A stretch of 64,000 nt of DNA from Thalassolituus oleivorans MIL-1 (GTDB taxonomy: Bacteria; Pseudomonadota; Gammaproteobacteria; Pseudomonadales; Oceanobacteraceae): NCBI RefSeq assembly GCF_000355675.1, contig NC_020888.1, forward strand, positions 2,374,883 to 2,438,882, given 5' to 3'. Positions within the stretch are counted from its first letter, which is position 1, and each line of letters begins with the position of its first letter. Of the stretch, positions 14,292 through 31,221 are shown one piece after another. Under the pieces are notes generated by a model that was not told where the DNA came from, made no database searches, and was given only the letters and a program-made list of their open reading frames with translations. A program made the translations under genes and the position numbers.

Positions 14292-16184
14292 ATGATTCGC
14301 TATCTACTTGATATGTCTCGCTCAAGAAAGCGTCTAGTTTCCCTTGCCTATGATTTTGTAGCCATACCTTTGGCGATATACATGGCCATGGCTTTACGCT
14401 ACGGCACAATGAACTTAAACATAACTGAAAATCTAGTTTACACTGCGGCCATTACCGCTTTAGTAACTTCCGCGGCTTTTATAAGACTAGGACTCTATCG
14501 CGCTGTAGTGCGGTTCATGACGGAGAGAGCTTTCACCTCTCTGATGTTAGGCATTGCAATATCGGCATTAACCTTAGCTACGAGTGCATTCTTACTTCAA
14601 GCAGCTGTGCCACGCTCAAGCATCATTATATATACTTTTACAGCGTATATGTTTTTAGGTGTACCGAGATTATTTGTGCGGGGTATGGTTGCACAACTAA
14701 TTAAATCCAATGCCGAGCCGGTTATAATCTACGGAGCAGGTAAACAAGGCATGTCACTAGTTCATGCTCTTTCTTCAAGCGAATTCTATCGTCCTGTTGC
14801 CTTTGTTGACGACTCAAGAAAAAAACAAAAAACATCAATTCAAGGCTTAAAAGTATGGCCGAGCAAACAACTAGATGACCTCTGTGACACTTACGGTGTA
14901 AAAAAAATACTGCTAGCCGTTGGCAAAACTAACATGCAGACGAGAAAACATTTAATTGAAGAACTTGCTGAGCGAAAATTAGAGATACTGATCACTCCTT
15001 CTTTTGGCGATATTATTAGTGGCCGCGCAAAAATTGAGGAGGTTCGAGAAGTTGATATAGAAGACCTCTTGGGCAGAGACTGCGTTGCACCAAACAGCAC
15101 CCTACTGGAAACTAGCGTTAGAGACAAAGTTGTTCTCATTACCGGTGCCGGTGGTTCTATTGGTTCTGAACTATGTCGCCAAGTTCTGATGAAAAAACCG
15201 ACAAAACTGGTTCTATTGGAACTTAACGAATTTAGTCTTTATAGCATTGAACAAGAACTACAAGCGACAAATGAAGAACTAAAACTTTCAGTGCCTATAG
15301 TTTCAATTTTAGGTTCGGTCCAAAAGCAAAATCGCCTAGAAACTATCTTTAAAACATTTAACGTCCAAACCATATATCACGCGGCAGCATACAAACACGT
15401 CCCGATGGTCGAATGCAATGTTGTCGAGGGCGTGAGAAATAATGTATTTGGTTCATGGTATTGCGCTGAAGCAGCCATTACATCGGGTGTGGAGCGTTTC
15501 ATCTTAATATCTACTGACAAAGCGGTTCGTCCAACCAACGTAATGGGCGCATCAAAACGTATGGCAGAACTCGTCCTGCAAGCTCTGTCAACTCGCCAAA
15601 CAGACACCCTATTTTCCATGGTGCGATTCGGTAATGTACTCGATTCATCAGGCTCCGTGGTGCCACGATTTCGTAAACAAATAAAAGAAGGGGGGCCTAT
15701 AACTGTAACCCACCCAGATATTATTCGTTATTTTATGACGATTCCCGAAGCGTCACAGCTAGTAATTCAAGCCAGCGCCATGGCTAAAGGCGGCGACGTA
15801 TTCGTATTAGATATGGGCGAACCTGTCAAAATCGTTAGTCTTGCAAAAAAGATGATTCACCTCTCTGGTTTAACAGAGAGGACCGATATAAATCCTAACG
15901 GTGACATAGAAATTCAATTCACGGGACTTCGTCCTGGAGAAAAATTATTTGAAGAACTGTTAATCAGCGAAGATGTTGAGGGTACCGAACATCCGCGTAT
16001 AATGACCGCAAGCGAAGTACATCTTAACTGGCCAGAAACACATAATCTTTTAAATCGTTTAGATAAAGCTTGTCATAACTTTCAGGTAGACAAAGTAATA
16101 AGCCTATTGCAAGAAGCGCCAGCGGCTTACGACAAGCAAAATGACTGTACTGACTGGGTATTAAACGAACCAAATAGTCTTTGA
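14292..16184 (+). CDS. wbpM: Membrane-bound UDP-GlcNAc C6-dehydratase, WbpM/PglF/CapD family
   Basis: Converts UDP-GlcNAc to UDP-4-keto-6-deoxy-GlcNAc, precursor of UDP-QuiNAc/FucNAc. 630 residues: four N-terminal membrane segments (about 15–125), a Rossmann-like CoA-binding-type domain (VIIYGAGKQGMSLVHAL, about 147), then the catalytic short-chain dehydrogenase domain from about 278 (VLITGAGGSIGSELCRQVL), with ISTDKAVRPTNVMGASKR carrying the family's modified catalytic residues. AGGA at 14284–14287 precedes the ATG. It is the first gene after tRNA-Asn and converges with the reductase/transferase pair at 16219–17723, which would use its product. WbpM is the family-level assignment; orthology to the P. 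aeruginosa gene is supported by position too. Confidence 0.92.
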   Translation: MIRYLLDMSRSRKRLVSLAYDFVAIPLAIYMAMALRYGTMNLNITENLVYTAAITALVTSAAFIRLGLYRAVVRFMTERAFTSLMLGIAISALTLATSAFLLQAAVPRSSIIIYTFTAYMFLGVPRLFVRGMVAQLIKSNAEPVIIYGAGKQGMSLVHALSSSEFYRPVAFVDDSRKKQKTSIQGLKVWPSKQLDDLCDTYGVKKILLAVGKTNMQTRKHLIEELAERKLEILITPSFGDIISGRAKIEEVREVDIEDLLGRDCVAPNSTLLETSVRDKVVLITGAGGSIGSELCRQVLMKKPTKLVLLELNEFSLYSIEQELQATNEELKLSVPIVSILGSVQKQNRLETIFKTFNVQTIYHAAAYKHVPMVECNVVEGVRNNVFGSWYCAEAAITSGVERFILISTDKAVRPTNVMGASKRMAELVLQALSTRQTDTLFSMVRFGNVLDSSGSVVPRFRKQIKEGGPITVTHPDIIRYFMTIPEASQLVIQASAMAKGGDVFVLDMGEPVKIVSLAKKMIHLSGLTERTDINPNGDIEIQFTGLRPGEKLFEELLISEDVEGTEHPRIMTASEVHLNWPETHNLLNRLDKACHNFQVDKVISLLQEAPAAYDKQNDCTDWVLNEPNSL

Positions 16185-16218: not shown

Positions 16219-16770
16219 CTAATTGCGAATTCGATCTCCTGTACCTCCACCACCAAGAGTTTTAAAAATCATAGAAAAATAACTTTTAAGGGACATTTCT
16301 TTAATCATCTTTGCGTCTATATTAGCTAAATCCCTTGGTGTAGACATATCAATTCCACTTAATTGAGCGAGACCTGTTATTCCTGGACGCACAGCGTATA
16401 CATCTAAAGCGCTTCTCTCAATTATTAGCTCTGTCTGATTTAATAAATTGGGACGAGGACCAACTAAACTCATATCACCTTTTAGGACATTCCAAAGTTG
16501 GGGTAACTCATCCAATTTAGTTTTTCGTAAGAATGATCCTAACTTAGTTACCGATGTAGCTGACGCGAGATGAGTTGCTACTGATTCAGTATCAACTTTC
16601 ATCGTACGAAATTTAACGAGCATAAATGGACTTCTATCTCTTCCTATCCTCTGCTGCCGAAACAACGGTGATCTCGAATCACTTAGTGCGAGTATATAAA
16701 TAAGCACTAACAATGGGAAACCCAACACCAATCCCAGCAGGGAAAACAAAATATCAAAAAAACGTATCAA
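16219..16770 (-). CDS. Small phosphoglycosyl transferase (initiating sugar transferase, PglC type)
   Basis: Probably transfers a sugar-1-phosphate from a UDP-sugar to undecaprenyl phosphate, the committed step of glycan assembly. 183 residues, the minimal monotopic form: an N-terminal re-entrant hydrophobic helix ([21 protein letters not shown]), [20 protein letters not shown], the core [20 protein letters not shown] with the catalytic Asp-Glu pair, then GPRP and RPGITGLAQ. Its start overlaps the end of the upstream reductase gene by 4 nt. Together with the WbpM-type dehydratase this suggests UDP-QuiNAc or UDP-FucNAc as donor (inference). Confidence 0.92.
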
Positions 16771-17723
16771 CGGCGATCACCTTGGATAAAAGCATCAACA
16801 GTTACTTTAATACCCTGTTCAACTGAAAACGGCGGACTCCAATTTAAAAGTTTCATGGCATAACTGGAATCAACTTCTAAATTACCTACTAACCTATCTA
16901 CAATCTTTGACTTCCCTAAAATAACGCCGAATAAACGAAATAAAAAACTAGGTAGTGGCCATAACTGGGTTTTTCGCCCCATGCTCGTTCTGATTAATGT
17001 CATCAATTCTGCCAGCGACAACGATTTCTGATCAGCAACTAAAAACGTTTGTGACGTTGCCTTCGGATGAGTGCAACAAAGTATGATAAAATCTACTAAA
17101 TTCTCAACGTATATCATAGACCTCACATTACTAACCAAAGAGAATGGCAAAGGAATACGACTATCGGCAAGCTTTAACAAACTTAGAAAATTAGCCCTAA
17201 CGCCTGCCCCGTAAACCAAAGGAGGACGAATAATCACAACTTCAAGTCCCGTCGATGTTGCTAACTCGCGAAGCCCAATTTCCGCTTCAAGTTTAGAAAT
17301 TCCATAGGCATCTAAAGGATTTGGAGCATCGTATTCGGTAAAAGGAGGACGTCCATTAGTATTTTCTCCATTTACCTTAATCGAACTGACGAATACAAAC
17401 CTTCTAACGCCAGCTGCTGCCGCCTGGCGAGCAAGATTGAGAGTACCTTCTACATTAACACAGCGCACATCTCGTAGAGCTGCAGCGTCAGACCCTCGTA
17501 CTACGCAAGTACGGGCCGCCAAATGTATAACTACATCTATATCTAAAAGTATTTGAGACCAGTTAGTATTTTCATCGATACGATCAACTGCTACTAAATT
17601 AGAATCTCTATCAAAATCATCTGGCAACACTCTAATTGCACCAACAAAATCAATATGCGCAGCCAACAAACCTGCTGTTAAATGCCGGCCTAAAAAACCA
17701 TTAGCTCCAGTAACTAAATACAT
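16767..17723 (-). CDS. NAD-dependent sugar epimerase/reductase, WbpV/WbpK type
   Basis: Predicted to reduce the 4-keto group of UDP-4-keto-6-deoxy-GlcNAc, giving UDP-D-QuiNAc or UDP-D-FucNAc. 318 residues, extended short-chain dehydrogenase: VTGANGFLGRHL near residue 4, VIHLAAR, FVSSIKVNGE, and catalytic YGISK at about residue 140. The stretch FTEYDAPNPLDAYGISKLEA and the following RPPLVYG, ANFL, IPLPF and YVENLVD segments match the WbpV/WbpK group as I know it. Which C4 epimer is made cannot be told by eye. It precedes and overlaps the transferase gene. Its upstream side faces the IS3 remnant, so its native promoter may have been displaced. Confidence 0.85.
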   Translation of the reverse strand: MYLVTGANGFLGRHLTAGLLAAHIDFVGAIRVLPDDFDRDSNLVAVDRIDENTNWSQILLDIDVVIHLAARTCVVRGSDAAALRDVRCVNVEGTLNLARQAAAAGVRRFVFVSSIKVNGENTNGRPPFTEYDAPNPLDAYGISKLEAEIGLRELATSTGLEVVIIRPPLVYGAGVRANFLSLLKLADSRIPLPFSLVSNVRSMIYVENLVDFIILCCTHPKATSQTFLVADQKSLSLAELMTLIRTSMGRKTQLWPLPSFLFRLFGVILGKSKIVDRLVGNLEVDSSYAMKLLNWSPPFSVEQGIKVTVDAFIQGDRR

Positions 17724-17770: not shown

Positions 17771-18093
17771 CTATACAACTATTGCCGCCTCTTCCTCAAA
17801 CGCGATTGGACTCATATCGTCGTTTGCTGAATGCCTTCCTTTAAGGTTATAAAATATTTCGATATACTTGAAGATACCTGATTTCCAAACTTCGATCGAA
17901 CTATAATTTTTCGCGCATACAAGCTCCACTTTTAATCGACTGAAGAATGATTCCATAAGTGCGTTACCCCAACAGTTTCCTTTAGGACTCATACTCAAAC
18001 GGCAACCATTTAATCGCAGATAATCAAGGTAACCTTGAGCACGACACTGCGCCCCACGATCTGAATGGACGATTAAGCAAGGTGTCGTTTTTC
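17771..18093 (-). pseudogene. IS3-family transposase OrfB remnant (C-terminal integrase core)
   Basis: About 107 codons resembling the end of an IS3-type DDE transposase: the HSDRGAQC segment (second catalytic Asp), then MSPKGNCWGNALMESFFSRL (catalytic Glu), then a KVELV...YIEIFYN tail. The first catalytic Asp, the DNA-binding N-terminus and OrfA are absent, because the left end of the IS66 element cuts the frame at 18093/18094; the open frame only continues into the IS66 end by chance. The missing 5' part is not found beyond the other end of IS66, so it was deleted. Not functional. Confidence 0.88.
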
Positions 18094-18122
18094 GTAAGCG
18101 CTCAAACAACCCCATCTGCCAA

Positions 18123-19754
18123 TTAAATAACCGCCAGTTCTATATTTTCCGGCAGCAGTTTTTCAATATCGTCCACCGTTTCACAGTGCGGTAATCGCGT
18201 CAGTACCGTACGTAAATACGCGTAAGGCTCTAGGTCGTTCGCTTTGGCGGTTTCTATTATGCTGTACAGCATGGCGCTGGCTTTTGCGCCACGTTGGCTA
18301 TCGCTAAATAACCAGTTCTTGCGTCCAATCGCAAACGGCCGGATAGTATTTTCGACGGGATTATTATCTATATGGAGTCGGCCATCGCTGATGTATACCG
18401 TGAGCTTATCCCAGTTTTTATCGAGGTATGCTAAGGCTTCGCCCGTTTTTCCTTTCGGCAGGGTTTGTTGCAGCGCTTTATCCAACCAGGCTCTGAGTTT
18501 ATTAAGCTGAGGCCGACTTTTTTCTTGTCGGATTTTGTGTTTTTGATCGGCCGGTTGGTCTTTGATGCTAGCTTCGATGGCGTAAAGCCCTTTGATCATG
18601 GTGATCGCCATATCGGCTTTGCTGACTTTCCCTTTGGGACTAGGGCTGACTTTTTGAGCGTCGATAAATTTACGACGAGCATGAGCCATGCAGCCCAGCG
18701 CGACGATACCTTCTTGCTGCCCAATGCGGTGATAACCCGCGTAATCATCAGTTTGCAGGTAGCCTTGATAGTCACCTAATAGTGAGGCTGCAACGTCGGT
18801 ACGTCGACTACTAGCGTAATCAAATAAGATGATGGGATGTTCTCGATCACCGGTTTTTCGGACCCACATGTAGCTGAGGCTTTCGGCCGTTTTGTCCGGT
18901 TCTTTTAATACCTGTACCCGAGTTTCATCCATGTGGATGTAGCCACTATCCAGAAGTTGATCATTGAGTAGGTTGTAAAGCGGTTGCAGACATTCACTAC
19001 TTTTAATCATCCAGTTGGCTAAGGTGTTACGCGGTAAATGAATGCCCATTCGTTTAAAAATGGTTTCCATCCGGTAAAGAGGTAAACCGTCTTGATATTT
19101 GGCAACCGCAATGTGGGCGAGTAAGCCTGGGCTAGCATTGCTCTTAGGAAGCGGTTGTTTCGGAAGTTCAGCAATGTGCACGCCGGTTTCGCAGGCCTTA
19201 CACGTGTATTTTTTGCGAGCATGAACGAGTACCTGAACCACGGCAGGAATAATATCCAGTTGTTCGCTGGTGTCTTCACCGATACAGGTTTTTACACAGC
19301 CACATGCACAACGTTTATCGGCTTCAGCAAGGTCGTGTTCGATACGTACTCGCGGTAATACCGCAGGCAGAGGTTTACGTCCGGAGGCTTTTTTAGGCGT
19401 AGACGATACAGCATCAGAGGCCAACTCTGCGGTGCTTACTTCGGCATCGATGGACTCTGCGATTTCAGGGGCGAAGGCATCGTCCTCACGTTCGACTTCA
19501 TCAAACAATTCGGCTTGCTGATCACTCTTCTCGCTGCTTTTACCAAACTGACGCTGTTTAAACAGAATGATCTGCTCTTCCAAAAACTGGATACGTGATT
19601 GTTTCTTATTTAACAGTACTTGATGGTGATGAATTAATTGTTCTTTTTTTTTCAACTGATTCTGTTGCGATTGCAATAACTGGTGCTGCGCTAAAAGCTG
19701 TTGTTTTAGCGCAACAATATCGTCAGGTAAGTGATCAGTCGGTGGTGTTTTCAT
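18123..19754 (-). CDS. tnpC: IS66 family transposase TnpC
   Basis: DDE transposase of the IS66 element, 543 residues, full family length. An N-terminal coiled-coil/leucine-rich stretch (HQLLQSQQNQLKKKEQLIHH), a zinc-finger-like Cys region (CACGCVK, then CKAC), the catalytic core beginning near YIHMDETRVQVL, and the conserved C-terminal IDNNPVENTIRPFAIGRKNW with the catalytic Glu. It appears intact. Lies 23 bp downstream of tnpB. Confidence 0.96.
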   Translation of the reverse strand: MKTPPTDHLPDDIVALKQQLLAQHQLLQSQQNQLKKKEQLIHHHQVLLNKKQSRIQFLEEQIILFKQRQFGKSSEKSDQQAELFDEVEREDDAFAPEIAESIDAEVSTAELASDAVSSTPKKASGRKPLPAVLPRVRIEHDLAEADKRCACGCVKTCIGEDTSEQLDIIPAVVQVLVHARKKYTCKACETGVHIAELPKQPLPKSNASPGLLAHIAVAKYQDGLPLYRMETIFKRMGIHLPRNTLANWMIKSSECLQPLYNLLNDQLLDSGYIHMDETRVQVLKEPDKTAESLSYMWVRKTGDREHPIILFDYASSRRTDVAASLLGDYQGYLQTDDYAGYHRIGQQEGIVALGCMAHARRKFIDAQKVSPSPKGKVSKADMAITMIKGLYAIEASIKDQPADQKHKIRQEKSRPQLNKLRAWLDKALQQTLPKGKTGEALAYLDKNWDKLTVYISDGRLHIDNNPVENTIRPFAIGRKNWLFSDSQRGAKASAMLYSIIETAKANDLEPYAYLRTVLTRLPHCETVDDIEKLLPENIELAVI

Positions 19755-19777
19755 GGGGTTGGATTATACCAAACCCG

Positions 19778-20134
19778 TTAATTTATAGCAGAGTAAAATA
19801 GCGTTTCATGCGGTTTATTATTAAAAATATCCAGCCCATCCAATAATAAGTTCAGCTGGTAACCGTCGATGCAGAGAGATGCAGTGTCGGTCGGCTTTAG
19901 CCATTTAAAGCGATGCTTTTCCAACCGTTTGTACCACAGCACAAAGCCATTGCGCTCCCAGTACAGTAGCTTAACTTTATCGCGGTTACGATTACAAAAG
20001 ACGAACAGCGCATTGATCATGGGGTTGAGTTCTAACTCCTGCTCAATCAGAGCGGACAAGCCATTAATCGACTTGCGCATATCCACCGCGCCTGCGTATA
20101 AATACACCTGAACCGATGCGCTAGGCCGAAGCAT
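19778..20134 (-). CDS. tnpB: IS66 family accessory protein TnpB
   Basis: About 118 residues from ATG 20134 (MLRPSASVQVYLYAGAVDMR). It carries the family-typical DMRKSINGLSALIEQEL, NALFVFCNRNRDKVKLLYW and GFVLWYKRLEKHRFKW segments. It is required with TnpA for efficient IS66 transposition in the family; its biochemical role is unclear. An upstream in-frame ATG at 20152 exists, but MLRP is the more typical start. It overlaps the 3' end of tnpA by 14 nt, suggesting translational coupling. Confidence 0.93.
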   Translation of the reverse strand: MLRPSASVQVYLYAGAVDMRKSINGLSALIEQELELNPMINALFVFCNRNRDKVKLLYWERNGFVLWYKRLEKHRFKWLKPTDTASLCIDGYQLNLLLDGLDIFNNKPHETLFYSAIN

Positions 20135-20420
20135 ACAAAAGTCCTCGGTCATTGAGAGCCAGCAATAGATCGGGTAAGGCCTCGGCTGACAGTTCAATCA
20201 ACACCTGCGAGCCTAATCGTAGTCGTGCAGGAGCCGAAGACGTTAGAGTGATAGGGATCAGAGCCTTGGTTTTCGTTAACTGGGTCTTGGGCGACAAACG
20301 TTTACGCCAATACTGAAAATTATGAACGGCTATGTTGTGCTGCTGGCAAAAGGCGACTTGCGATAATCCACTGGCGTGCCAGAGATTAAGGTGTTGTTGC
20401 CATTGTTCCGATTTGGTCAT
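20121..20420 (-). CDS. tnpA: IS66 family accessory protein TnpA
   Basis: 99 residues with an N-terminal helix-turn-helix (WQQHLNLWHASGLSQVAFCQ, then HNFQYWRKRL), as usual in IS66 OrfA proteins. The first codons and the upstream terminal repeat are duplicated at 20501–20599; the second copy contains only the first few codons and is not a gene. Confidence 0.92.
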   Translation of the reverse strand: MTKSEQWQQHLNLWHASGLSQVAFCQQHNIAVHNFQYWRKRLSPKTQLTKTKALIPITLTSSAPARLRLGSQVLIELSAEALPDLLLALNDRGLLYASA

Positions 20421-20617: not shown

Positions 20618-21772
20618 TTATGTAAAACTTTCAACTTTCAATAAAAGTCTTTGGTATAGTTTATTTGTTTTTTCAAAAACCAACTCCTGAGAGAACTGAA
20701 GAACTACTTTGTCACGGCCACACCGCCCCATCTTAAGGTAGTTTTCATCCTCAAAAATATCTAATAATCTTTTCTCTAGCATCGCAGGCTTATTAGGATC
20801 GACTAGATAACCGTTAAAACCATTCTCGACGATAGCATTACACCCTGAGACATTAGTCGCTAGAAGAGCCCTGCCACATGCAGCGGCTTCAATTAAGATA
20901 CGAGGAACTCCTTCACCATAAACTGTGGGTAAACATACCAAGTCGACCGAATGCAACAAGGAAACCATATCCGAAACATTTCCTAGCCAGACAATATCTC
21001 CTGCACTATGCATTCTCTCAACATCTGTAATAGGTATGGCTTCATTTACATCATCATCTACGATACCAGCAACTAATAAAGTGAGCTGTGCACCCTCACA
21101 ATTGAGCTTCTTGACCGCTCGAGCGATGTTATAAAATCCTTTAGACTTTAAAAGCCTTGCAGCGAACAAAATATATCTATTACCAGGCGGGACTTTATAA
21201 AAATATTTTTCAGTATCTACTCCCGCCCCATAAATCACTTCCCCCCGGTTCTCTTTGACGATCTTGTACCGGGTGAACTTTTCAAAGTCATCACTATTTT
21301 CAAAAACGAAGTATGAGTACTTACTCTGCGCGACTTTGTATAATAAACTTACGAAATGCCTTACAAAGCAAAATAGAATAGATTTTGAGCTGTACACTAA
21401 GCCAAGTCCAGTAACAGCAACAACCTGAGGCTTTTTTAGAAATACCTTAACCAAAATCCCTGTATAAATATTAGGTTTTATTGTAACAGAATGGATAATC
21501 TCTGGACCTATACTTTTAAGTAAGAACCCAAGCGAAATCAGCGTTCTAGCTTCAGAAATCGGATTTAAACCTTTCCGAGATAAATCTATATCGTAGCAAT
21601 GTATACCCAAACCGCACATACGACTTCGGATATTTTCACTAGAAAATCGAGTAATCAAGAAAACATCAAATCCAACTGATTTAAAAAATAAAGCACGATC
21701 CAACCAATGAAGATCAAAATACCAGTCGACATTAACAACAAAAACTAGCCTCTTTCTATCTTTAGTCATCAT
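20618..21772 (-). CDS. Glycosyltransferase, GT-B fold, family 4-like
   Basis: 384 residues. N-terminal acceptor half (KRLVFVVNVDWYFDLHWLDR), with HSVTIKPNIYTG and VTGLGLVYSS resembling WbpY/WbnE-like O-antigen enzymes. C-terminal donor half with ILFAARLLKSKGFYN and the retaining-enzyme EX7E motif in YGEGVPRILIEAA. Likely adds a sugar from a nucleotide donor at the inner membrane; donor and linkage cannot be read from sequence. Last gene of the eight-gene operon; overlaps the preceding gene by 11 nt. It ends with a natural TAA only 18 bp from the IS66 end, so genes that once followed it may have been lost. Confidence 0.88.
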   Translation of the reverse strand: MMTKDRKRLVFVVNVDWYFDLHWLDRALFFKSVGFDVFLITRFSSENIRSRMCGLGIHCYDIDLSRKGLNPISEARTLISLGFLLKSIGPEIIHSVTIKPNIYTGILVKVFLKKPQVVAVTGLGLVYSSKSILFCFVRHFVSLLYKVAQSKYSYFVFENSDDFEKFTRYKIVKENRGEVIYGAGVDTEKYFYKVPPGNRYILFAARLLKSKGFYNIARAVKKLNCEGAQLTLLVAGIVDDDVNEAIPITDVERMHSAGDIVWLGNVSDMVSLLHSVDLVCLPTVYGEGVPRILIEAAACGRALLATNVSGCNAIVENGFNGYLVDPNKPAMLEKRLLDIFEDENYLKMGRCGRDKVVLQFSQELVFEKTNKLYQRLLLKVESFT

Positions 21773-22535
21773 AGCCTCTCTTGGAATAAGTCAAAGCAAA
21801 AGCTCTAAAAAATAAAAATAAAGTAAGCAACGAGAAATAAGTGAAACTGGTTTCAAAACCCAAGAAATATAATACCGAAAAAATGAGGATTAAAACCAGA
21901 TAGTAATATACACGACCTGTCGTGGCATTAAATAGAGAAAAATTACGAATTACAGAAGAAAACTGAAACTTATCCTCCCTAACTCTCTCAATACTATTAT
22001 GCAACGGAAAAATAAGAATCATATACAACATTACTTCAGATGAAAAACCAAAGACTAAAAGAAGTGGAATATAATAACGAGAAGTAACCATTAAAAAGTG
22101 AAGCAACAACCTAAAGCGTATAGGCACAGAATTATATATAATATGAAGTAAATAAATTATAAAAAAAACAAGGATAACCCATGGCATTTCTAATACGAAA
22201 AATGATATTAGAATTGAAGTGAAGAATCTAAAAAGAAATATAACCCTAATATTACGCTCTATAAATTTCCTTTCCGTTAGCCCCAACCTTTCCGTTTTAT
22301 TAGTTTCATACTTACTACCAAAACAGTCATTAATCATATAGCCAATTTCATAGGGTATATATACCAACATAGAACAGAAAAAAACTCTAACTAAATCATA
22401 CAGATCGGCTTCGTAATAAAAATAAGAGAAGTAAATTAAAGTGAAAAAATATATAAACAAAAAAGATAACTTTCTCGACCATCCTTTAGTTCTAGTTTTG
22501 AAAAAATATAAAAATGGAACAAAACTCCAAATCAC
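21762..22535 (-). CDS. Polytopic membrane protein, UbiA-superfamily-like
   Basis: 257 residues with about seven to eight hydrophobic segments rich in Phe, Tyr and Ile. Between the second and third segments lies YMINDCFGSKYETNKTERLG (residues 66–85): the ND pair followed by an acidic residue and a Lys/Arg pair resembles the first Asp-rich loop of UbiA-type prenyltransferases, and YNSVPIRFR recalls the second loop. The usual NDxxDxxxD is degenerate. In the UbiA family the nearest analogue in glycan synthesis is decaprenyl-phosphate phosphoribosyltransferase, which makes a lipid-linked pentose donor; that role here is inference. Overlaps its neighbours by 4 and 11 nt within the operon. Otherwise it could be an unrelated membrane protein of the locus. 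Confidence 0.5.
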   Translation of the reverse strand: MIWSFVPFLYFFKTRTKGWSRKLSFLFIYFFTLIYFSYFYYEADLYDLVRVFFCSMLVYIPYEIGYMINDCFGSKYETNKTERLGLTERKFIERNIRVIFLFRFFTSILISFFVLEMPWVILVFFIIYLLHIIYNSVPIRFRLLLHFLMVTSRYYIPLLLVFGFSSEVMLYMILIFPLHNSIERVREDKFQFSSVIRNFSLFNATTGRVYYYLVLILIFSVLYFLGFETSFTYFSLLTLFLFFRAFALTYSKRGYDD

Positions 22536-24412
22536 CGGATCAACCTCTTAACTAACTTACGGGTTCTATCGTTATCAAGAAAACTACCCAATCTAACGAT
22601 TGGAAGCATAAAACCATATCCAGAATTCACTAACGAGCCTTCTAACCATATACTCCTCATTAGATCAGACAAAAAACTTCTATTAAAACCAACTTTAGAT
22701 ACCAGCTTTCGGCTACCACCCGTATCAAAATCACTCACAAGCTTAGTAAACTCAAAAGGGGGGGTTGTTGCGAAATTCAAAAATAATTTTTGAGAAATGA
22801 TTTTAACATCAAAATCGGTGTAAACAGTTGATCTCCTAAAGTCAATGTAAGCATTCACAATATTACTAAAATCAAGATCCTTCACAGGAAAGGCAGGGGT
22901 ATCGTAGAGCTTTGAAAGAACAGGAACAATACGCTTCGATTCACAATCTTCTAAATAAGTCAACGTTGTGCCATATGAGGCAGGACTCAAAATAGCCTCA
23001 AAAGCTCCAAAACCTCTATAAACAGAAGGTATCAAAGCTTGATCAGCCTTAGCAAAAACAACGCCATCACCGTGAGGATTATAGTACCTCTTGTCTACAC
23101 CAAAATATCTCGCAGATAGCGGTGTATTTAAGATCGAGTTTATAGACTTTTCGATAGTACCTCCCCATCCGACATCAGCTAGCAGAACATTATTGAAATC
23201 ATACTGTTCCAAGTATCTTTTCAAATTCAAATCATGAATCTGCTTAAGCTCTGGTAATGAACAGTCTTTATGAGCGTTAAAGATTTCTTTAGCATACGCC
23301 TGACTATCAGAAACTGTTTGATCAATATCGAACACGCCACGACTAAGAAAAATAACGTCTGAAGATATAGATAGGCCTTTGAGTTGACAATAATTGTTAA
23401 AAATCTGATGCAAAAAAATCCCTTCCCTTGCCACAAAGAGAACAGATTTATTTAGTTTTATAGCTTCATTGGCTAATTTTTCAATATAAAAAAAACATGG
23501 AAAATAGATATTAACGGCTACATAATCATTAATAAACGACTCATTCCTATATGGAATATTCGACAAATAAATATCATATAAATCCTCTAAAGCAAGCTTA
23601 TACAAACTATCTTTAGTTAAGGATTTGACTTTCGACCTCTTCACAAGTATCGGCGAAATACCGGAGGCCTTTGCCCCTTTGATATCTGAGAATATATTAT
23701 CGCCGATATGAACACAACGATCAGCAGTTAAGGAGTTTTCAATAAGATACTTCTCAAAGAGCCTACCTGTACTTTTTAACTTTCCAGAGTCGGACGAAAC
23801 ATATACGTTCTCGAACACATCAACAAATCCAAGAGAGTTCAAGATAAACCTGATAGAATGTATGTCCAAATACATATCTGAAATTGCGAACAACCTCTTT
23901 CCTTTTCTAGTAAGTATATTCACGAAATTTAGTACACCAGGCTTAACAGTTAAAGCTGTCAGCTCCAAATTCAACTCAATATCGAGAAGACATTTAAATA
24001 TTTCTTCATGGTTTCTATCACAGATCGTATTTACTAGGGTATCAATTAGATCTCTAATATTTACCTCTCCATCACCTCCTTCCTTAAGATTTCTTTCTCG
24101 TAACTCCTTTCCCACTCGAGCCCTGGCAATAAATAGGTCATCTGCACTTACAGCATATCCTAGGTTATTTAGGCACTCGGCCCATAAATCTACTATTCTA
24201 CGCTGCCAATCCTCGGGCCGAAAATTCTTACGTTCAATCAAAGTATCAAAAATATCAAAACTAAACGCCTCATACTTATCCAGAATTACTTTTTTATCTA
24301 ATAAGGACTCTAAATCAGATGTAGTCGAACCAAAAATATAGAACAACTTATAAAAAAGATTAGAAGCTATATTAAGTAAATCAGTACTTATATATGGCAT
24401 CTTCGGGATCAT
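22532..24412 (-). CDS. Two-domain HAD hydrolase / putative glycan-modifying transferase (COG5610-like)
   Basis: 626 residues. N-terminal HAD phosphatase domain: FDIFDTL at 52–58 (both catalytic Asp present), ISDM at 177–180, Lys in the KLKSTG region about 211, and HIGDN at 235–239 with a further Asp at 243. C-terminal half (about 290–600): a conserved-looking LFVAREG at 325–331 and LLADVGWGGT at 410–419, a strand–Asp–Gly-rich loop arrangement that recalls the PRPP loop of phosphoribosyltransferases. The protein is a paralogue of the one at 26847–29219. A hydrolase acting on a phosphorylated sugar during glycan assembly is likely. A combined phosphoribosyl transfer plus dephosphorylation role is my inference. 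Confidence 0.72.
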   Translation of the reverse strand: MIPKMPYISTDLLNIASNLFYKLFYIFGSTTSDLESLLDKKVILDKYEAFSFDIFDTLIERKNFRPEDWQRRIVDLWAECLNNLGYAVSADDLFIARARVGKELRERNLKEGGDGEVNIRDLIDTLVNTICDRNHEEIFKCLLDIELNLELTALTVKPGVLNFVNILTRKGKRLFAISDMYLDIHSIRFILNSLGFVDVFENVYVSSDSGKLKSTGRLFEKYLIENSLTADRCVHIGDNIFSDIKGAKASGISPILVKRSKVKSLTKDSLYKLALEDLYDIYLSNIPYRNESFINDYVAVNIYFPCFFYIEKLANEAIKLNKSVLFVAREGIFLHQIFNNYCQLKGLSISSDVIFLSRGVFDIDQTVSDSQAYAKEIFNAHKDCSLPELKQIHDLNLKRYLEQYDFNNVLLADVGWGGTIEKSINSILNTPLSARYFGVDKRYYNPHGDGVVFAKADQALIPSVYRGFGAFEAILSPASYGTTLTYLEDCESKRIVPVLSKLYDTPAFPVKDLDFSNIVNAYIDFRRSTVYTDFDVKIISQKLFLNFATTPPFEFTKLVSDFDTGGSRKLVSKVGFNRSFLSDLMRSIWLEGSLVNSGYGFMLPIVRLGSFLDNDRTRKLVKRLIR

Positions 24413-25557
24413 CTAATAATCCTTAACAATAGCCTACCCAGAAAACTACTTTTAATCCTATCAATCTGAGAAACGAGAGATCCATTAATCTCTGTTAAGT
24501 TCAAAATTTCCATGTTTTTCAATGAATCATCTTCTATTAACTCGTCAATCCTTTTACTCCTAAACTTACTTTCTTCTAATAACCTATTAATCTCATTATC
24601 ATTTTTCAGCTGCCTAGCGCTTAATTCTTCCAATATTGAAGTTTCAGCATTCGAAATAAGAAGTTTCTCTCGCACCAAGCGATCTTCTTCTTCTTTTTTC
24701 TTTATTTGCTTTTCTAGCTCGTTAACTTTAAAGATGTTTTTAGTCAAATCAATTTGGTGTTCATGTAAACCCTGAATTAATCTCAATCGATTTGCTTCAA
24801 GTATGCCAAGCATCGGGCCTAAAATCATAATATTATTAAGGAACTGATTTAGCTCTTCGGTAATAAGGTTTTCTGATATCAATATACCTAGCCCATATAA
24901 AGAGGGGAACTTATAGTATTTTAATCCACTATTACTCTTTAAAAAATCATCAATAGCTGTCTGAACACCATTACATGCTCCTCCATATTCATCAGCCATA
25001 GCATACGTTGTACCATTTGGAAATCCGCGATCACTAAAACCATTTGTTTCTAAATGAAGACTCTTATTGTATGAATAATCTCTAATATAATTTTCATTAG
25101 GATTATAATATATATCCCTACGAGCCCAAGGCCAGCCTACATCATGCAAAAGACAAACCATTCCATCTAGACCATTCGCAAATTTTATACTATCAAGTTC
25201 CATCTTAACCGTAGAATAATTGTGATCACCATCTAGAATATATATATCAGCTTTGCCACCATCGGAAAAAAAATCTAAAGATGTCTTTTCATGAAGCTGA
25301 GCATATTCAAGCTCCTTAACAGGCTCTGACAACAGAGGGTCTACGATAACTAACGTCCGCTCATTGTCGACACAATACTCTTCAAGGAGTTTACTTGTAT
25401 ATCCTAAATTAGCACCTACCTCACAAATTATTTGGTGGGGAACTTGCTTAAATACCTGTACAAATATCGGCCAAAATGTAACCATTTCGGTTAAATTATA
25501 GGTATCTATAAAATACTTAGGTAAACCTAATTCTTCTATAACTTCATTTGATAACAT
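24409..25557 (-). CDS. SAM-dependent methyltransferase with long C-terminal coiled coil
   Basis: 382 residues. Residues 40–200 form a class I methyltransferase (Methyltransf_24-like): ICEVGANLGYTSKLLE at 44–59, LVIVDPLL, then YILDGDHNYSTV at 106–117 and LLHDVGW. From about residue 258 to 370 the sequence is a charged heptad-like coiled coil (VNELEKQIKKKEEEDRL, ILEELSARQLKNDNEINRLL), and it ends in a basic amphipathic tail, SSFLGRLLLRIIR. This layout recalls WbdD-type chain terminators of ABC-exported O antigens, in which a capping methyltransferase carries a coiled-coil ruler. It lies directly after the Wzt gene, overlapping it by 14 nt, which supports a capping role. Substrate unknown. Confidence 0.8.
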   Translation of the reverse strand: MLSNEVIEELGLPKYFIDTYNLTEMVTFWPIFVQVFKQVPHQIICEVGANLGYTSKLLEEYCVDNERTLVIVDPLLSEPVKELEYAQLHEKTSLDFFSDGGKADIYILDGDHNYSTVKMELDSIKFANGLDGMVCLLHDVGWPWARRDIYYNPNENYIRDYSYNKSLHLETNGFSDRGFPNGTTYAMADEYGGACNGVQTAIDDFLKSNSGLKYYKFPSLYGLGILISENLITEELNQFLNNIMILGPMLGILEANRLRLIQGLHEHQIDLTKNIFKVNELEKQIKKKEEEDRLVREKLLISNAETSILEELSARQLKNDNEINRLLEESKFRSKRIDELIEDDSLKNMEILNLTEINGSLVSQIDRIKSSFLGRLLLRIIR

Positions 25558-26830
25558 AATCGTTTACCTTAAAATCATTGAAGGGTACTGAAAAAATACC
25601 ATGTTCAATATGAGGAGTAACACAGTGCAATATTTCGAAATCATTTACCCAGCACTGAACATCATGAACGACTTCATTACTTTGATCGACAAAGCCCAAA
25701 CCAAGAGTGAGCGTATATTCGCCTGTTTGTAGATTAGGCCAATTGAATTCAAACTCTATCTTCGTAAAATTTTCAACTGAAAATTCTTCACGTAAAGAAA
25801 GACTATTCTGGCCGAATATCTTTTGACCAAATTTATCTCTAAAGAAAAAACCTACGACAGGTTTTCCTGTCAAACGTTTAGCAATATTAGATTTAACCAA
25901 TAATGATATGGTTATAACATCCCCATGATTGACAATACTTGTCTTACTATCATTTACAACCAAAGAGTACTTACTGATTTCATAATCCCTTAATCCACTG
26001 AGAGCATTTGAGTCCACATCTTTGAAATCATTAATGGCATTATTTAAAGAACTTAAATTATCGGGAAGTAAAGTATCACCTGATTCGATATTTTGGACTT
26101 GGGACTTAGAATGAATAATTTCATTATAATATTTTATTGCTTGCTTTGTTGGTCCATCAAAAATAATTAGACCTTCACTTAAAACAATACATCTATTCGC
26201 AACTAAAGATAATGTTGCGAAATCATGAGTAACGAATAGCTTAGTTTTGTTTTTTAAAGTTCCGCTTAGATGTGCAAAACATTTTTGCTGAAACAACACA
26301 TCACCTACAGAAAGCGCCTCATCAACAATTAGGATATCTGGTTGTAAGTGCGCTGATACTGCAAATGCAAGTCTTACAAACATCCCGCTAGAGTAAGTTT
26401 TAACAGGTTGATAAACGTGATCACCTATATCTGCGAAGTCTATTATTTTTTGTAACTTTTCTTGAGTTTCTAAACGAGATAATCCGAATATCGATGCGTT
26501 AAGAAATACGTTCTCAATACCTGTGTATTCAGGATTGAACCCTGCTCCCAATTCTAAAAGTGCAGCGATTCGACCATCCACATGACAACTACCATGTGTA
26601 GGATTCAACGTACCCACTATCATTTGCAAAAGAGTGGATTTACCTGCTCCATTAAGGCCTATAATTCCTACAGATTCACCTTTCTTTACTTCAAAAGAAA
26701 TACCCTTAATAGCCCAAAATTCTTTACCAATTTTCTTATTAAATATAATTTCCTTAAGCTTATCAGAGGGCTTATCATAGACAAGATAACGCTTTTTCAA
26801 GTCTTTTACTGATATAGCAATTTCATTCAT
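25544..26830 (-). CDS. wzt: ABC polysaccharide exporter ATPase with C-terminal substrate-binding domain (Wzt)
   Basis: Nucleotide-binding subunit of an O-antigen/teichoic-acid-type exporter. 428 residues: Walker A GLNGAGKST at 58–66, Q-loop, signature YSSGMFVRLAF near 145, Walker B ILIVDEALSVGD near 170, and H-loop THDF. After about residue 245 comes an extra beta-rich domain of about 180 residues (for example GDVITISLLVKSN, FNWPNLQTGEYTLTLGLG), typical of Wzt_C carbohydrate-binding domains that recognise a terminal cap on the glycan. It partners Wzm (30433–31221) but is separated from it by two genes, which is unusual. The methyltransferase gene that follows overlaps it. Confidence 0.94.
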   Translation of the reverse strand: MNEIAISVKDLKKRYLVYDKPSDKLKEIIFNKKIGKEFWAIKGISFEVKKGESVGIIGLNGAGKSTLLQMIVGTLNPTHGSCHVDGRIAALLELGAGFNPEYTGIENVFLNASIFGLSRLETQEKLQKIIDFADIGDHVYQPVKTYSSGMFVRLAFAVSAHLQPDILIVDEALSVGDVLFQQKCFAHLSGTLKNKTKLFVTHDFATLSLVANRCIVLSEGLIIFDGPTKQAIKYYNEIIHSKSQVQNIESGDTLLPDNLSSLNNAINDFKDVDSNALSGLRDYEISKYSLVVNDSKTSIVNHGDVITISLLVKSNIAKRLTGKPVVGFFFRDKFGQKIFGQNSLSLREEFSVENFTKIEFEFNWPNLQTGEYTLTLGLGFVDQSNEVVHDVQCWVNDFEILHCVTPHIEHGIFSVPFNDFKVNDYVIK

Positions 26831-26846
26831 ATTACAACACCGGGTT

Positions 26847-29219
26847 TCAACTAATATTTTTTGAGTTTTTCTGTTTTAACATAACTTTAAATCTGTAAGT
26901 ATCATTATAATATCTTTGCTTTCGCCTAAGGTTACATAAGAAATTTGTCAACTTAAAAGAAAAATATGACAATACAGTAGATGATGGATTATAAGATTCA
27001 GATAGTGATATGCAATCCTTAGCACTATCATTTATAAGTGACAGTAATTGGAAGTACTCTTCATTTACTAAGAATTTTTCATTAGTAACAATATTCGATA
27101 ATTTAGCTGGGCTCTTATCTTTAGGTATTATATAGCCAAAATTATTAGTCGAAGGCATACGAGGAATCGGAATGTTTCTATCAGCACATCTATATGCCTT
27201 TAGTGCAACATACGTAAGTTGAACCCATTTATTAAAATTTGAGGTTTTTGCGTATGGCCATAGTGTAAATTTATGACTACGTATAAATGATAAAAACCCT
27301 TCATTTCCGCCTGACAAATTAATAACTTCATTCGATCCTAAATCAGACACATTATCAATTTTCCCTATCTTGCTGGAGAAATCTATCGATGGAAATCTAA
27401 TCATCTGGTCCAAGCATATTTTGGCAAACGACATAGGCGCACTAGAAGTTAAATTATAAAACTTACAGAAACTGACATAATTCTCGGAATATTTAATTGC
27501 ATTTCGCTGATAACTCGCTATTAATGAATCGCTCTCAATTTCTATTTTTCTAGAGTTTTCTTGTTCCGATTTAAATGCTGGTACTACTTTCCCATGCTCT
27601 TTATTATATCCTACCACCGTGGCATGTGGTGCTCTCGTTAAAGTTTCCATAATAAAAACCGACCGGATCGTAGAATATCCAAACCATCCCATATGTGACT
27701 CATCACTCATAGTCCAATAATATTTGGATTTTGAAGCCTGCCGTTCATGCGCTGCCACCTTACATCCTAAATATATCCCGTGGATCTCTGGGCAGTCACC
27801 ATGAAATCTAATCGACTGATAAATATTATCTTGTATTTGTCCGCTCCAGCCGACATCGACCATAGCAATTTTTTTATCTTTAAAGAAATTTAAATCTTCT
27901 AAATATTCAATAAATAACTCGTGCTGATCTATTCCTGTTTTAGTTACAAGTTTATTAATTTCAATATCATCTATCAAATTCAGGAACGGATCCCAAGTTT
28001 CAAAATTCGGAGGAAGCGGAGAATTAATTGAAGGGATCCCATATTCGCGGCAGCATCTATTTAAGATATCTTTATGAATTCTAAAAGGAGCAAGAATCTT
28101 ATCAACAGTGTAAGTTCCAGTATTTTTTATACAATTTTGAAGTAGCTTTAAGGTAATACCATTTCGGAAATTAGGAGTAATACTTGCTAAACGAGATGTG
28201 TAAAAATATCTACTCTCAATTTTAGAATTTGGATGGAGCCCTTTAACCAAGTTATCAAATATAACCTTAAGAACCGCTCCTTCTCGAGAAAGAAAGTATA
28301 TTTTTTTAATATCATGCTCTAAGCAATGCTCCACACACTTATGTAGATGCGAGGTCAACACAGGACCAAGAAGGCTTGCAGGCTCTCCAAGGTCATTAAT
28401 CATTTTTCTATTTGAATATTTATAACCATTCAAACCCAAGAAATTTGGGTCATAATTATTCATATCGACATCTTTTTGTGCATCTCTAATATATTCAAAC
28501 TCTTCTTTATCTTGAACTATATTTGAGTTCCAACCAACTGTTTTAGCACTCATTCCATCGGCTTCTTCATTGTCACCGAAATGAAAAATATAATTACCAG
28601 AAAAATCAATATCTTTTTCAATGAATTTAAATAAGTTGCCCGTTCGCTTTAGATATCCCGAATCACTAGAAACATAGATTTTCTCAAACCAAGATAAATC
28701 ATACCCAGCACACTTAAGAATATTTTCTACATGAGACGTCGATAAATACATATCTGAAACCAAAATTATTTTCTGGCCATAGTCTTTAATCTTATTAAAG
28801 AATTCCAAAGCATGCTTATTTGGATATATAACAGAAAGCTCTAGATCAAGTTCTGTTGCCTGCAGTTCGGAAGCCAAATGTTCGGAATAACTAGAACCAA
28901 AGCAAATTTCTATCCATTTTCTACAAAATTCAATATAATCTACCTCAAAATCCAACCCTTTAGATTCTCTTCCCGCTGAAATTTCGACATACGCTTGATG
29001 CCTTGCTTCCCATGGGTCGGCTAATAAGGCAATACTTCTATCATTTGCTACTTTTTTCAGCCAATTACAAAGGCCATCAATAACAATTTTGGGTGACACA
29101 TAACGGTGCACAAGCGTATCAAATATATCAAATGACAAAACCACACTATCTGCCACTAACAATTCGGCATATTCAAAGGCTGATTTACTTGACTTAAAGT
29201 GCTTCATATTAAAACTCAA
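26847..29219 (-). CDS. Two-domain HAD hydrolase / putative glycan-modifying transferase (COG5610-like), longer paralogue
   Basis: 790 residues, paralogous in layout to the protein at 22532–24412. N-terminal HAD domain: LSFDIFDTL at 28–36, VSDMYLS at 154–160, YLKRTG near 189, and FHFGDNEEADG at 212–222. C-terminal part: IYFLSREGAVL at 307–317 and MVDVGWSGQIQDNIYQSI at 453–470, then about 300 further residues without a motif I recognise. The same pair of motifs (REG and D-V-G-W-x-G) in both proteins suggests a shared second catalytic domain. It begins within the stop of the upstream glycosyltransferase (4-nt overlap). Function in the polysaccharide pathway is inferred from context only. Confidence 0.72.
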   Translation of the reverse strand: MSFNMKHFKSSKSAFEYAELLVADSVVLSFDIFDTLVHRYVSPKIVIDGLCNWLKKVANDRSIALLADPWEARHQAYVEISAGRESKGLDFEVDYIEFCRKWIEICFGSSYSEHLASELQATELDLELSVIYPNKHALEFFNKIKDYGQKIILVSDMYLSTSHVENILKCAGYDLSWFEKIYVSSDSGYLKRTGNLFKFIEKDIDFSGNYIFHFGDNEEADGMSAKTVGWNSNIVQDKEEFEYIRDAQKDVDMNNYDPNFLGLNGYKYSNRKMINDLGEPASLLGPVLTSHLHKCVEHCLEHDIKKIYFLSREGAVLKVIFDNLVKGLHPNSKIESRYFYTSRLASITPNFRNGITLKLLQNCIKNTGTYTVDKILAPFRIHKDILNRCCREYGIPSINSPLPPNFETWDPFLNLIDDIEINKLVTKTGIDQHELFIEYLEDLNFFKDKKIAMVDVGWSGQIQDNIYQSIRFHGDCPEIHGIYLGCKVAAHERQASKSKYYWTMSDESHMGWFGYSTIRSVFIMETLTRAPHATVVGYNKEHGKVVPAFKSEQENSRKIEIESDSLIASYQRNAIKYSENYVSFCKFYNLTSSAPMSFAKICLDQMIRFPSIDFSSKIGKIDNVSDLGSNEVINLSGGNEGFLSFIRSHKFTLWPYAKTSNFNKWVQLTYVALKAYRCADRNIPIPRMPSTNNFGYIIPKDKSPAKLSNIVTNEKFLVNEEYFQLLSLINDSAKDCISLSESYNPSSTVLSYFSFKLTNFLCNLRRKQRYYNDTYRFKVMLKQKNSKNIS

Positions 29220-30433
29220 CCCATTATTTCTTTATATAAATTCATATGATTTTGAATGAGACTTCCTTGAGTGTAACTTCGCTCCACAGCCAATCTCGAC
29301 TCTACACTCCAAGATTCAAGAATATCACAGTTCATCGCTAACTTTAGCCCATCAACCAATCCTTCGATATCTCCTTGATCGACTAAATATCCATTTTTCA
29401 AATGCTTTACCATGTCAACAACGCCACCTGTTTTATATCCAACAATAGGAGTTCCACAACTTAACGATTCTAGTACTGACAACGGCATATTGTCCGCCAG
29501 AGAACTAAATAGAAAGATATCTGCCGCAGAAAAGTATGCAGCCAATGTCACCGGTTCGGATATATAGCCAGTGAATACTCGATTAAAACCTTTAAGCCTT
29601 GAATTTATCTCTTCGCTATAACTACCAACTAAAATAATTAATGGATTATATTCTTCGAGTAATTGTACTGCTTCTATTGCTTGCGCTATGCCCTTTCTAT
29701 AATCATTAAGGTCACCGGCAGAAATAATAACTTTTAATCCGTCATAATCTAAAATCCCCTTATCCGGAACATCATGCTTTCTCGCCGGATTATAAATAAT
29801 TTCATCGACAGCGTTTGGTATGACAAATGGCCTATTCTTTATCATCTTGCTGTTATATGCCATATCAGCCATCCAATTGGATGGTGAAATCAAGGTGATA
29901 TTAGATTTAGAGTGAACGTATTTTTTTAATCTCAAACCTATACTAGTTGTATCAACAACTGAATCTATAGGCCAATTTCCAGATTGCGGACAAGAACCGC
30001 ACTTCTGCTTATATTTCTCACAACTTAAAGGATACAAGCAACCTCCAGTAAATGGAGAACAGTCATGCAAAGTCCATACAACATTGAAACTTTCCGCCAA
30101 TAGACTTAATGTCAATGGGGATATCGCGGAGGATAAATCGTGAAAATGTATTACATCGGGGTTGAATTCTTTCACCTTCGAGAGTAACGATGGATATTCA
30201 TAAGGTATATACTCAGGAAAACCAATTTTCTTAGTATAGTAATGCAACCTCCTTATACTTTGTTCATTTCGACCATAAAGCGACTTACGCGTGGAATTAT
30301 AACCATATCCAGACCAACTAGCTAAGTGCTCTACTTGATGATTCAGATTATTCATTAAATCCGTTAGCTGTGAAGCGACCTTGCTAGCACCACCGCCGAA
30401 TGAATCTGACTTACTTACCTGTAGTATTTTCAT
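29216..30433 (-). CDS. Glycosyltransferase, GT-B fold, WcaC-like family 4
   Basis: 405 residues. N-terminus MKILQVSKSDSFGGGASKVA, then WTLHDCSPFTGGCLYPLSC and a Cys-rich KCGSCPQ stretch, features of the WcaC-like group. C-terminal donor domain with VIISAGDLNDYRKGIAQA and DNMPLSVLESLSCGTPIVG, where Asp replaces the first Glu of the EX7E motif, as is usual in this group. Probably transfers a hexose or deoxyhexose to the growing glycan at the cytoplasmic face; donor unknown. It starts on the last base of the wzm stop codon and overlaps the next gene by 4 nt. Confidence 0.9.
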   Translation of the reverse strand: MKILQVSKSDSFGGGASKVASQLTDLMNNLNHQVEHLASWSGYGYNSTRKSLYGRNEQSIRRLHYYTKKIGFPEYIPYEYPSLLSKVKEFNPDVIHFHDLSSAISPLTLSLLAESFNVVWTLHDCSPFTGGCLYPLSCEKYKQKCGSCPQSGNWPIDSVVDTTSIGLRLKKYVHSKSNITLISPSNWMADMAYNSKMIKNRPFVIPNAVDEIIYNPARKHDVPDKGILDYDGLKVIISAGDLNDYRKGIAQAIEAVQLLEEYNPLIILVGSYSEEINSRLKGFNRVFTGYISEPVTLAAYFSAADIFLFSSLADNMPLSVLESLSCGTPIVGYKTGGVVDMVKHLKNGYLVDQGDIEGLVDGLKLAMNCDILESWSVESRLAVERSYTQGSLIQNHMNLYKEIMG

Positions 30434-31221
30434 TAAATGACGTCCGAAAAATGCTTACTAACTCGATTAAACCACTTATAACCTAGAGAGAATATCAACA
30501 ACGAGATGGAGATGTTACGAAGATAGTCGACAGAGTCTAGAATTTCACCGTGAAACAAAACGGCTCTAAAGCCTTCGATATAATAAACGAGGGGATTTAA
30601 ATAGATCAGCTCTCTCATTGATTCTGGAACCATAGTTATGGAATAGAATACTGGACTCATAAACATCATCATCGTGAGTAGAGTTCCAATTAAATGTTGA
30701 AGATCCGAAAAAAAGACACCAAGACTCGAAATGACCCAAGACAAGCCAGCCACAGTAAGAAGTAAAGACAAAAGCAAAAAAATCAACTGAAATATTGCTA
30801 GACTAGGGAGACCCAGAACAACAAAGTATCCGATAAGAAAAACTCCAAAAGCTATTATGGCATTAAATAGTGCAGAAAACACAACCACAAGTGGCAATAT
30901 ATTTAGTGGGAAGACGATCTTTTTGACATAGGAAGTATTACCTCTTATGACCGTACTACTTCTTCCGATAGATTCAGAAAAAAAACTATAGATAATCATA
31001 CCTACCATTATATTAAGAGCGAAAAATCCTAGCCCTTCATCACCTCTACCCCACCTCATCTTGAAGACAAAACTAAATACATAGGTGTATATTAACAAAG
31101 TAACTATAGGTGTTAATATCAGCCACAACCTGCCGAATATACTTCCTTTGAATTTTGATGAGATATCTCGTGAGGTAAGTTGAAATATCAACTCCAACCT
31201 TCTTAATAAAAATTCTATCAC
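30433..31221 (-). CDS. wzm: ABC polysaccharide exporter permease (Wzm)
   Basis: ABC-2 type membrane subunit that forms the channel for lipid-linked glycan. 262 residues with six predicted membrane segments. N-terminal amphipathic interface helix region (LTSRDISSKFKGSIFGRLW), FSESIGRSSTVIRGNTSYVKKIVFPL, and the C-terminal MFMSPVFYSITMVPE...LNPLVYYIEGFR signature of the O-antigen/teichoic acid permeases. Start is GTG at 31221, with AGGA about 8 nt upstream. First gene of the minus-strand operon; a run of 8-bp repeats lies 28 bp before it. Confidence 0.94.
   Translation of the reverse strand: MIEFLLRRLELIFQLTSRDISSKFKGSIFGRLWLILTPIVTLLIYTYVFSFVFKMRWGRGDEGLGFFALNIMVGMIIYSFFSESIGRSSTVIRGNTSYVKKIVFPLNILPLVVVFSALFNAIIAFGVFLIGYFVVLGLPSLAIFQLIFLLLSLLLTVAGLSWVISSLGVFFSDLQHLIGTLLTMMMFMSPVFYSITMVPESMRELIYLNPLVYYIEGFRAVLFHGEILDSVDYLRNISISLLIFSLGYKWFNRVSKHFSDVI

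Follow-up and report, generated by a model that had tools for sequence, protein, structure and literature searches.

Two diverged predicted members of the PRP-gPRT ribofuranosyltransferase family in one O-polysaccharide-type operon of Thalassolituus oleivorans MIL-1

Two Predicted PRP-gPRT Proteins

A 64,000-nucleotide stretch of the Thalassolituus oleivorans MIL-1 genome (contig NC_020888.1, positions 2,374,883 to 2,438,882; hereafter the window, numbered from its first letter) contains two genes on the minus strand, P0001 (22532..24412; 626 aa) and P0002 (26847..29219; 790 aa), whose products are, on the evidence of their sequences, two new and diverged members of the known PRP-gPRT ribofuranosyltransferase family. 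In both proteins a HAD phosphatase domain (PRP) is followed by a predicted phosphoribosyltransferase domain (gPRT). We propose, with a probability of about 0.88, that they act as two-step ribofuranosyltransferases which, alongside two GT4 enzymes, build an O-polysaccharide with two beta-ribofuranose (beta-Ribf) linkages; the proposal draws on sequence comparison, on the fold of a P0001 model and on operon context. The finding is ordinary in kind, since PMC11127046, PMC10299916, PMC11231755 and PMC12096443 already describe this family along with the two-step reaction and the ABC-transporter (ATP-binding cassette) O-antigen setting.

An earlier note on this DNA had described the two open reading frames (ORFs) as HAD two-domain proteins, and both were found at these positions. 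P0002 starts at a TTG codon or, alternatively, at the ATG of residue 5. Five motifs occur once in each protein: DIFDT (residue 53 in P0001, 31 in P0002), SDMYL (178 and 155), GDN (237 and 215), REG (329 and 312) and DVGW, followed by x-G (413 and 455). The observation that REG and D-V-G-W-x-G are common to both second domains held, and from the Pfam and 7shg matches given below it is judged to be beyond chance.

For comparison, relatives were taken from 80 related loci, the best among 517 confirmed stretches. An ORF was found in 79 of these loci (none in L037), and 26 of the 79 proteins fell outside 560–800 aa. A 55-row alignment was made of 53 locus proteins plus P0001 and P0002, and a further one (A3) held 51 of those 53 with the same two proteins. 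Relatives of P0001 at an E-value (E) of 1e-10 or better were present in three of 145 genomes of the order, its own genome included.

The HAD domain of P0001 (23618..24295, minus strand; residues ~40–265) was recognized by Pfam PF00702 at residues 48–251 (E 1.6e-13), with Asp53 as nucleophile. In P0002 (28500..29147, minus strand; residues ~25–240) the Pfam HAD match was under the curated cut-off (E 0.0061, 17.4 bits), and the domain aligned to 7shg, a solved relative from Thermobacillus composti, and to Bcs3 of the Haemophilus influenzae type b capsule from residue 28. Most HAD phosphatases carry an Asp two residues past the nucleophile. The earlier note had credited both proteins with a full HAD domain and all its acidic motifs; the HAD motifs are indeed present in both, but motif I reads D-I-F-D-T, without the usual second Asp. 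Since the same motif is found in the 7shg and Bcs3 alignments and both of its Asp residues are invariant in all 55 aligned members, DIFDT in place of DxD is, by sequence comparison, a trait of the family. Across the HAD domain, the Asp, Asp, Lys and Asp positions are invariant in the 55 members, P0001 and P0002 included.

The gPRT domains, whose limits are approximate, lie on the minus strand at 22853..23617 in P0001 (residues ~266–520; REG 329–331, DVGW 413–416) and at 27450..28472 in P0002 (residues ~250–590; REG 312–314, DVGW 455–458). Neither second domain is covered by a Pfam model. With single sequences as queries, P0001 and P0002 matched 7shg at E 2.4e-22 and 4.6e-28 and Bcs3 at E 1.5e-9 and 7e-19, respectively; the P0002 alignment to the solved relatives extends to residue 585, and the P0001 match to 7shg is strong through the HAD half and into the beginning of the second domain. 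A profile of four sequences (P0001, P0002 and two proteins from other genomes) aligned across both domains of 7shg (E 3.8e-60) and Bcs3 (E 2e-37). An AlphaFold2 model of P0001, built from 53 sequences, reached a predicted local distance difference test score (pLDDT) of 83.4 and a predicted template modelling score (pTM) of 0.74. In a Foldseek search of the PDB with this model, the top eight matches were two 7shg chains and six chains of Bcs3 entries; beyond them, the 50 of 646 matches listed were mostly single HAD proteins.

The PRPP-site (phosphoribosyl pyrophosphate) and proposed catalytic residues reported for Bcs3 (S678, R679, D680, S707, R708, R712, E818, T825, E874, and S884; PMC10299916) were located by spacing in the Bcs3 sequence of the profile alignment. 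The 55 members show no variation at the positions equivalent to R679, R708 and E874; the D680 equivalent is Asp in 42 and Glu in 13, and the E818 equivalent is Asp in 53. All five positions are kept in P0001 and P0002. The S707 equivalent is Ser in both (45/55 members), and the S884 equivalent is Thr in both. These residues, the profiles, the P0001 model and the operon context all support the earlier suggestion that the second domain is a PRPP-using transferase and the HAD domain its phosphatase.

Several results weigh against this assignment. Identity to the aligned relatives is low, reaching no more than 25% in P0001 and 24% in P0002, and the far C-terminal half of P0001 matches 7shg weakly by single sequence (domain E 0.22). 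The S678 equivalent is Ala in P0001 (as in 38/55 members) and Ser in P0002, the T825 equivalent is Gln in P0002 (1/55) and Thr in P0001, and R712 is replaced by Asp in P0001 and by Ile in P0002, Arg being present in just 10 of the 55. In Bcs3, the insert separating active-site loops two and three forms a bundle, HB-2, that surrounds the active site; in P0001 this insert is shortened to 54 aa, the third shortest of the 55 (P0002, 111 aa; median, 105 aa). The whole-chain TM-scores (template modelling) of the P0001 model were just 0.39–0.49, values that may reflect differing domain angles and differing helical inserts. A degenerate gPRT domain in P0001 was considered and rejected, because the five conserved positions are intact despite the weak far-half match. 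The PRP-gPRT proteins of loci L013 and L025 have inserts of 33 and 38 aa, below that of P0001.

P0002 carries a C-terminal tail (26850..27449, minus strand; residues 591–790). Behind the last gPRT position, P0002 has 257 residues, P0001 has 145, and the family median is 145; the excess over P0001 is only ~110 residues, and the ~300 further residues of the earlier note were an overestimate. The C-terminal 200 residues gave no match in Pfam, and when residues 576–790 were searched with phmmer against ORFs from the 80 related loci plus those of the window, only the protein itself came back.

The Operon

P0001 and P0002 belong to a set of eight genes on a single strand (20618 to 31221) with overlaps no longer than 14 bases and a single 16-base gap. 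Their G+C content is 29–38%, as against 44.8% in the window. Besides P0001 and P0002, they encode the ABC-2 membrane component Wzm (30433..31221; PF01061, E 2.3e-24), a GT4-type glycosyltransferase (29216..30433; PF00534, E 6.2e-25), the transporter ATPase Wzt with a C-terminal Wzt_C domain (25544..26830; PF00005, E 5.2e-21; PF14524, E 6.2e-19), a methyltransferase-like protein (24409..25557; PF13578, E 7.7e-4, below cut-off), a UbiA-like membrane protein (21762..22535) and a second GT4-type glycosyltransferase (20618..21772; PF00534, E 2.5e-24), all on the minus strand. By gene content, this is a tight, A+T-rich operon of the ABC-transporter O-polysaccharide type. At least two PRP-gPRT genes per locus were found in four of the best 80 related loci.

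The methyltransferase-like protein ends in a charged stretch (41% charged residues, with one Gly and no Pro in its 106 residues). Its heptad signal is weak: the value for residues 272–364 was reached in 136 of 2000 shuffles, and those for three parts of this segment in 137, 453 and 967 of 2000. In Klebsiella pneumoniae O4 and O7 the chain is ended and its length set by a coiled-coil protein (PMC11231755), and by analogy the methyltransferase-like protein is a possible chain terminator.

The UbiA-like Membrane Protein

The UbiA-like gene lies directly after P0001, whose end it overlaps by 4 bases. Its product (257 aa) was matched by no Pfam model at E 10; NCBIfam and the PDB returned nothing for the protein or its alignment, and a single-sequence structure model was unusable (pLDDT 53). 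Relatives were sought in overlapping samples of 299, 369, 398, 99, 240 and 244 genomes, with the protein or its alignment as query. Two rows were dropped, one (G188, L005) because its frame resembled, by eye, that of a large exporter, and the other (G820, L117) because it contained five stop codons, which left five relatives outside the own genome. In four of these (L004, L006, L115, and L154) the UbiA-like gene directly follows a small HAD gene, whose product passes the Pfam cut-off in each case; in L116 the UbiA-like part follows, within one fused protein, a HAD-like domain that falls just short of that cut-off. In the window, P0001 holds the position of the HAD partner.

Comparison of the UbiA-like family with a PPPRS profile by hhalign gave a probability of 8% when three members were used, 44% for five members and 21% for six; against UbiA alone the value was below 1%, and against PPPRS plus UbiA it was 81% and 79%. 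Controls with reversed profiles or a Wzm profile stayed below 1%, and block-shuffled profiles exceeded the real score in none of 100 cases in the five-member run and in one of 100 in the six-member run. The family also scored 19 PPPRS proteins above 114 unrelated polytopic ORFs with an area under the curve (AUC) of 0.92, and PPPRS plus UbiA (43 proteins) above the same ORFs with an AUC of 0.77, the proteins in both tests being interrelated and not independent. L092, a UbiA-family gene of the own genome, was placed among the 114 other ORFs, and the motif filter of the UbiA set was passed by 16 of 30 loci. Profile hidden Markov models of PPPRS and UbiA did not match the window protein at E 1e-3. 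In the NDxxDxxxD motif, the Asn is invariant in the family, the first Asp is present in four of the five aligned members and the last position is Glu or Asp; the second Asp (D77 of Rv3806c), which is Mg-binding according to the residue roles in PMC11127046 and PMC10994848, is absent from the aligned members. Taken by sequence, the UbiA-like protein is probably a remote relative of the UbiA-type lipid phosphoribosyltransferases. A canonical PPPRS role is disfavoured, since this Asp is missing and the operon has no flippase or GT-C gene: Pfam found neither a MATE flippase nor a GT-C among its eight genes, the rest of the genome not having been searched for a MATE flippase. Two PMT_2-type genes occur elsewhere in the genome.

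The partner HADs matched the HAD portion of the PPPRS fusions (96%, E 1.5e-9) and showed no likeness to the PRP-gPRT family (0.2%). Their motif I reads DxCGTL in L004 (2216–2842), L006 (1995–2744), L115 (2084–2752) and L154 (865–1485), and DFDYAL in the L116 fusion; in the HADs fused to PPPRS it is DxDGTL in 10 of 12 and DLDNTL in one, and it was not found in the remaining one. The best 80 PRP-gPRT loci contained no PPPRS, UbiA or UbiA-like family member at the thresholds used; an earlier three-member UbiA-like profile had given a single weak match of 81 aa in L012 (E 0.0019). A canonical PPPRS elsewhere in the genome was considered and set aside: Pfam UbiA led to two other genes, and the DPPRS profile NF008978 gave one weak match, below cut-off, at the first of them (E 1.8e-4).

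Proposed Function and Alternatives

According to our proposal, the gPRT domain would work in the cytoplasm as an inverting enzyme, passing 5-phosphoribose from PRPP to a hydroxyl group on the nascent lipid-linked glycan to give beta-Ribf-5-phosphate, and the HAD domain would then strip the 5-phosphate, permitting addition of the next sugar. The two GT4 enzymes, P0001 and P0002 would together make an O-polysaccharide, containing beta-Ribf in two kinds of linkage, which the methyltransferase-like protein may cap and Wzm/Wzt, through the Wzt_C-bearing Wzt, would export. PRPP as donor, the beta configuration, the two additions and the capping are what we infer; all the bipartite enzymes reported in PMC11127046 form beta-linkages, and, with both enzymes apparently intact, two separate beta-Ribf additions are likely.

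It is possible, though we would not expect it, that P0001 or P0002 acts outside the repeat unit, on an adaptor or at the chain end, and that the repeat holds a single Ribf. Adaptor and terminal residues of ABC-transporter O-antigens come from separate enzymes (PMC11127046), the insert and tail of P0001 are unlike those of P0002, and loci with several PRP-gPRT genes are few; against this, sequence assigns neither protein to a position. We consider it improbable that P0001 mainly serves the UbiA-like protein, which would attach phosphoribose, or some comparable group, to a lipid or a lipid-linked glycan for the P0001 HAD domain to dephosphorylate in place of a small HAD, leaving the backbone to P0002 only. 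The HAD-then-UbiA-like order in the window and in all five relatives kept (four adjacent genes, one fusion), the lack of a small HAD gene in the operon by Pfam, the resemblance of the partner HADs to those of PPPRS fusions and the remote similarity of the membrane family to PPPRS/UbiA would fit such a partnership, but P0001 retains its gPRT active-site positions, the partner HADs are unlike the PRP of its family, and the UbiA-like protein presents the gaps noted above: an incomplete motif, no match to the PPPRS/UbiA profiles at E 1e-3 and no flippase or GT-C gene in the operon. That the second domain is unrelated to PRPP transferases and merely attached to a HAD phosphatase, as its want of a Pfam model might suggest, is very hard to reconcile with the two-domain profile match to solved ribofuranosyltransferases, the conserved PRPP positions and the fold match.

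The two-step ribofuranosyltransferase assignment leaves room for a more speculative view of the membrane protein, which we regard as rather unlikely: the UbiA-like proteins and their HAD partners might be a sister group, so far undescribed, to the lipid phosphoribosyltransferase/phosphatase module, found in polysaccharide loci with no GT-C gene seen close by. Here a full PRP-gPRT enzyme would have replaced the HAD partner, with one phosphatase serving soluble and membrane transfer and perhaps alpha- and beta-ribofuranose in one glycan. No publication on a HAD-linked UbiA-like family was found in the literature searched, little of that search having been aimed at the family.

Relation to Known Systems

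P0001 and P0002 resemble 7shg in the order HAD then gPRT, in the DIFDT motif I and in the conserved PRPP-site residues, and from the literature, not by sequence, they can be likened to ORF5 and ORF7 of K. pneumoniae O4 and O7, where PRP-gPRT enzymes serve ABC-transporter O-antigens (PMC11231755). They differ from this group in the presence of two such genes in one operon, the short insert of P0001 and the longer tail of P0002, with identity to the aligned relatives of ~25% or less. Like the CrpP-CriT part of Bcs3, they join phosphatase and PRPP transferase in one chain with the same active-site pattern; Bcs3 has in addition a ribitol-phosphate transferase (CroT) and an SH3b domain, whereas P0001 and P0002 have no match to a CroT-type domain. 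By description, Cj1432 of Campylobacter jejuni HS:2 likewise has a HAD module and a PRPP transferase module that serve to add ribose (PMC12096443), with an additional N-terminal glucuronic acid transferase. The UbiA-like neighbour shares with the PPPRS-PRP fusion ORF15 of Citrobacter youngae and with mycobacterial Rv3806c a polytopic, HAD-linked nature, the motif Asn, the first Asp (in four of five aligned members) and remote profile similarity; it differs from them in lacking the second motif Asp, a Pfam UbiA match and an operon flippase or GT-C, and its partner HADs have DxCGTL (four of five) instead of the DxDGTL of the PPPRS-PRP group.

These results predict ribofuranose in the O-polysaccharide of T. 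oleivorans MIL-1, and two diverged PRPP-dependent transferases in one pathway could allow acceptor choice to be compared. The HAD-linked UbiA-like family offers a testable lead on incorporation of pentofuranose, or another phosphosugar, in loci without known lipid-linked donor machinery, and the lead to pursue is a possible link between P0001 and a divergent membrane phosphoribosyltransferase.

Surrounding Genes

An IS66 element (17771–20197), with TnpB-type and transposase genes and an rve-type integrase fragment, separates the GT4 gene at 20618 from two minus-strand genes of the same locus, an NAD-dependent epimerase/dehydratase (16767..17723; PF01370, E 2.1e-32) and an initiating sugar-phosphate transferase (16219..16770; PF02397, E 8.2e-53). 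Facing the locus on the plus strand is a Polysacc_synt_2 protein (14292–16184; PF02719, E 3.2e-125), which we take to be WbpM/FlaA1-like.

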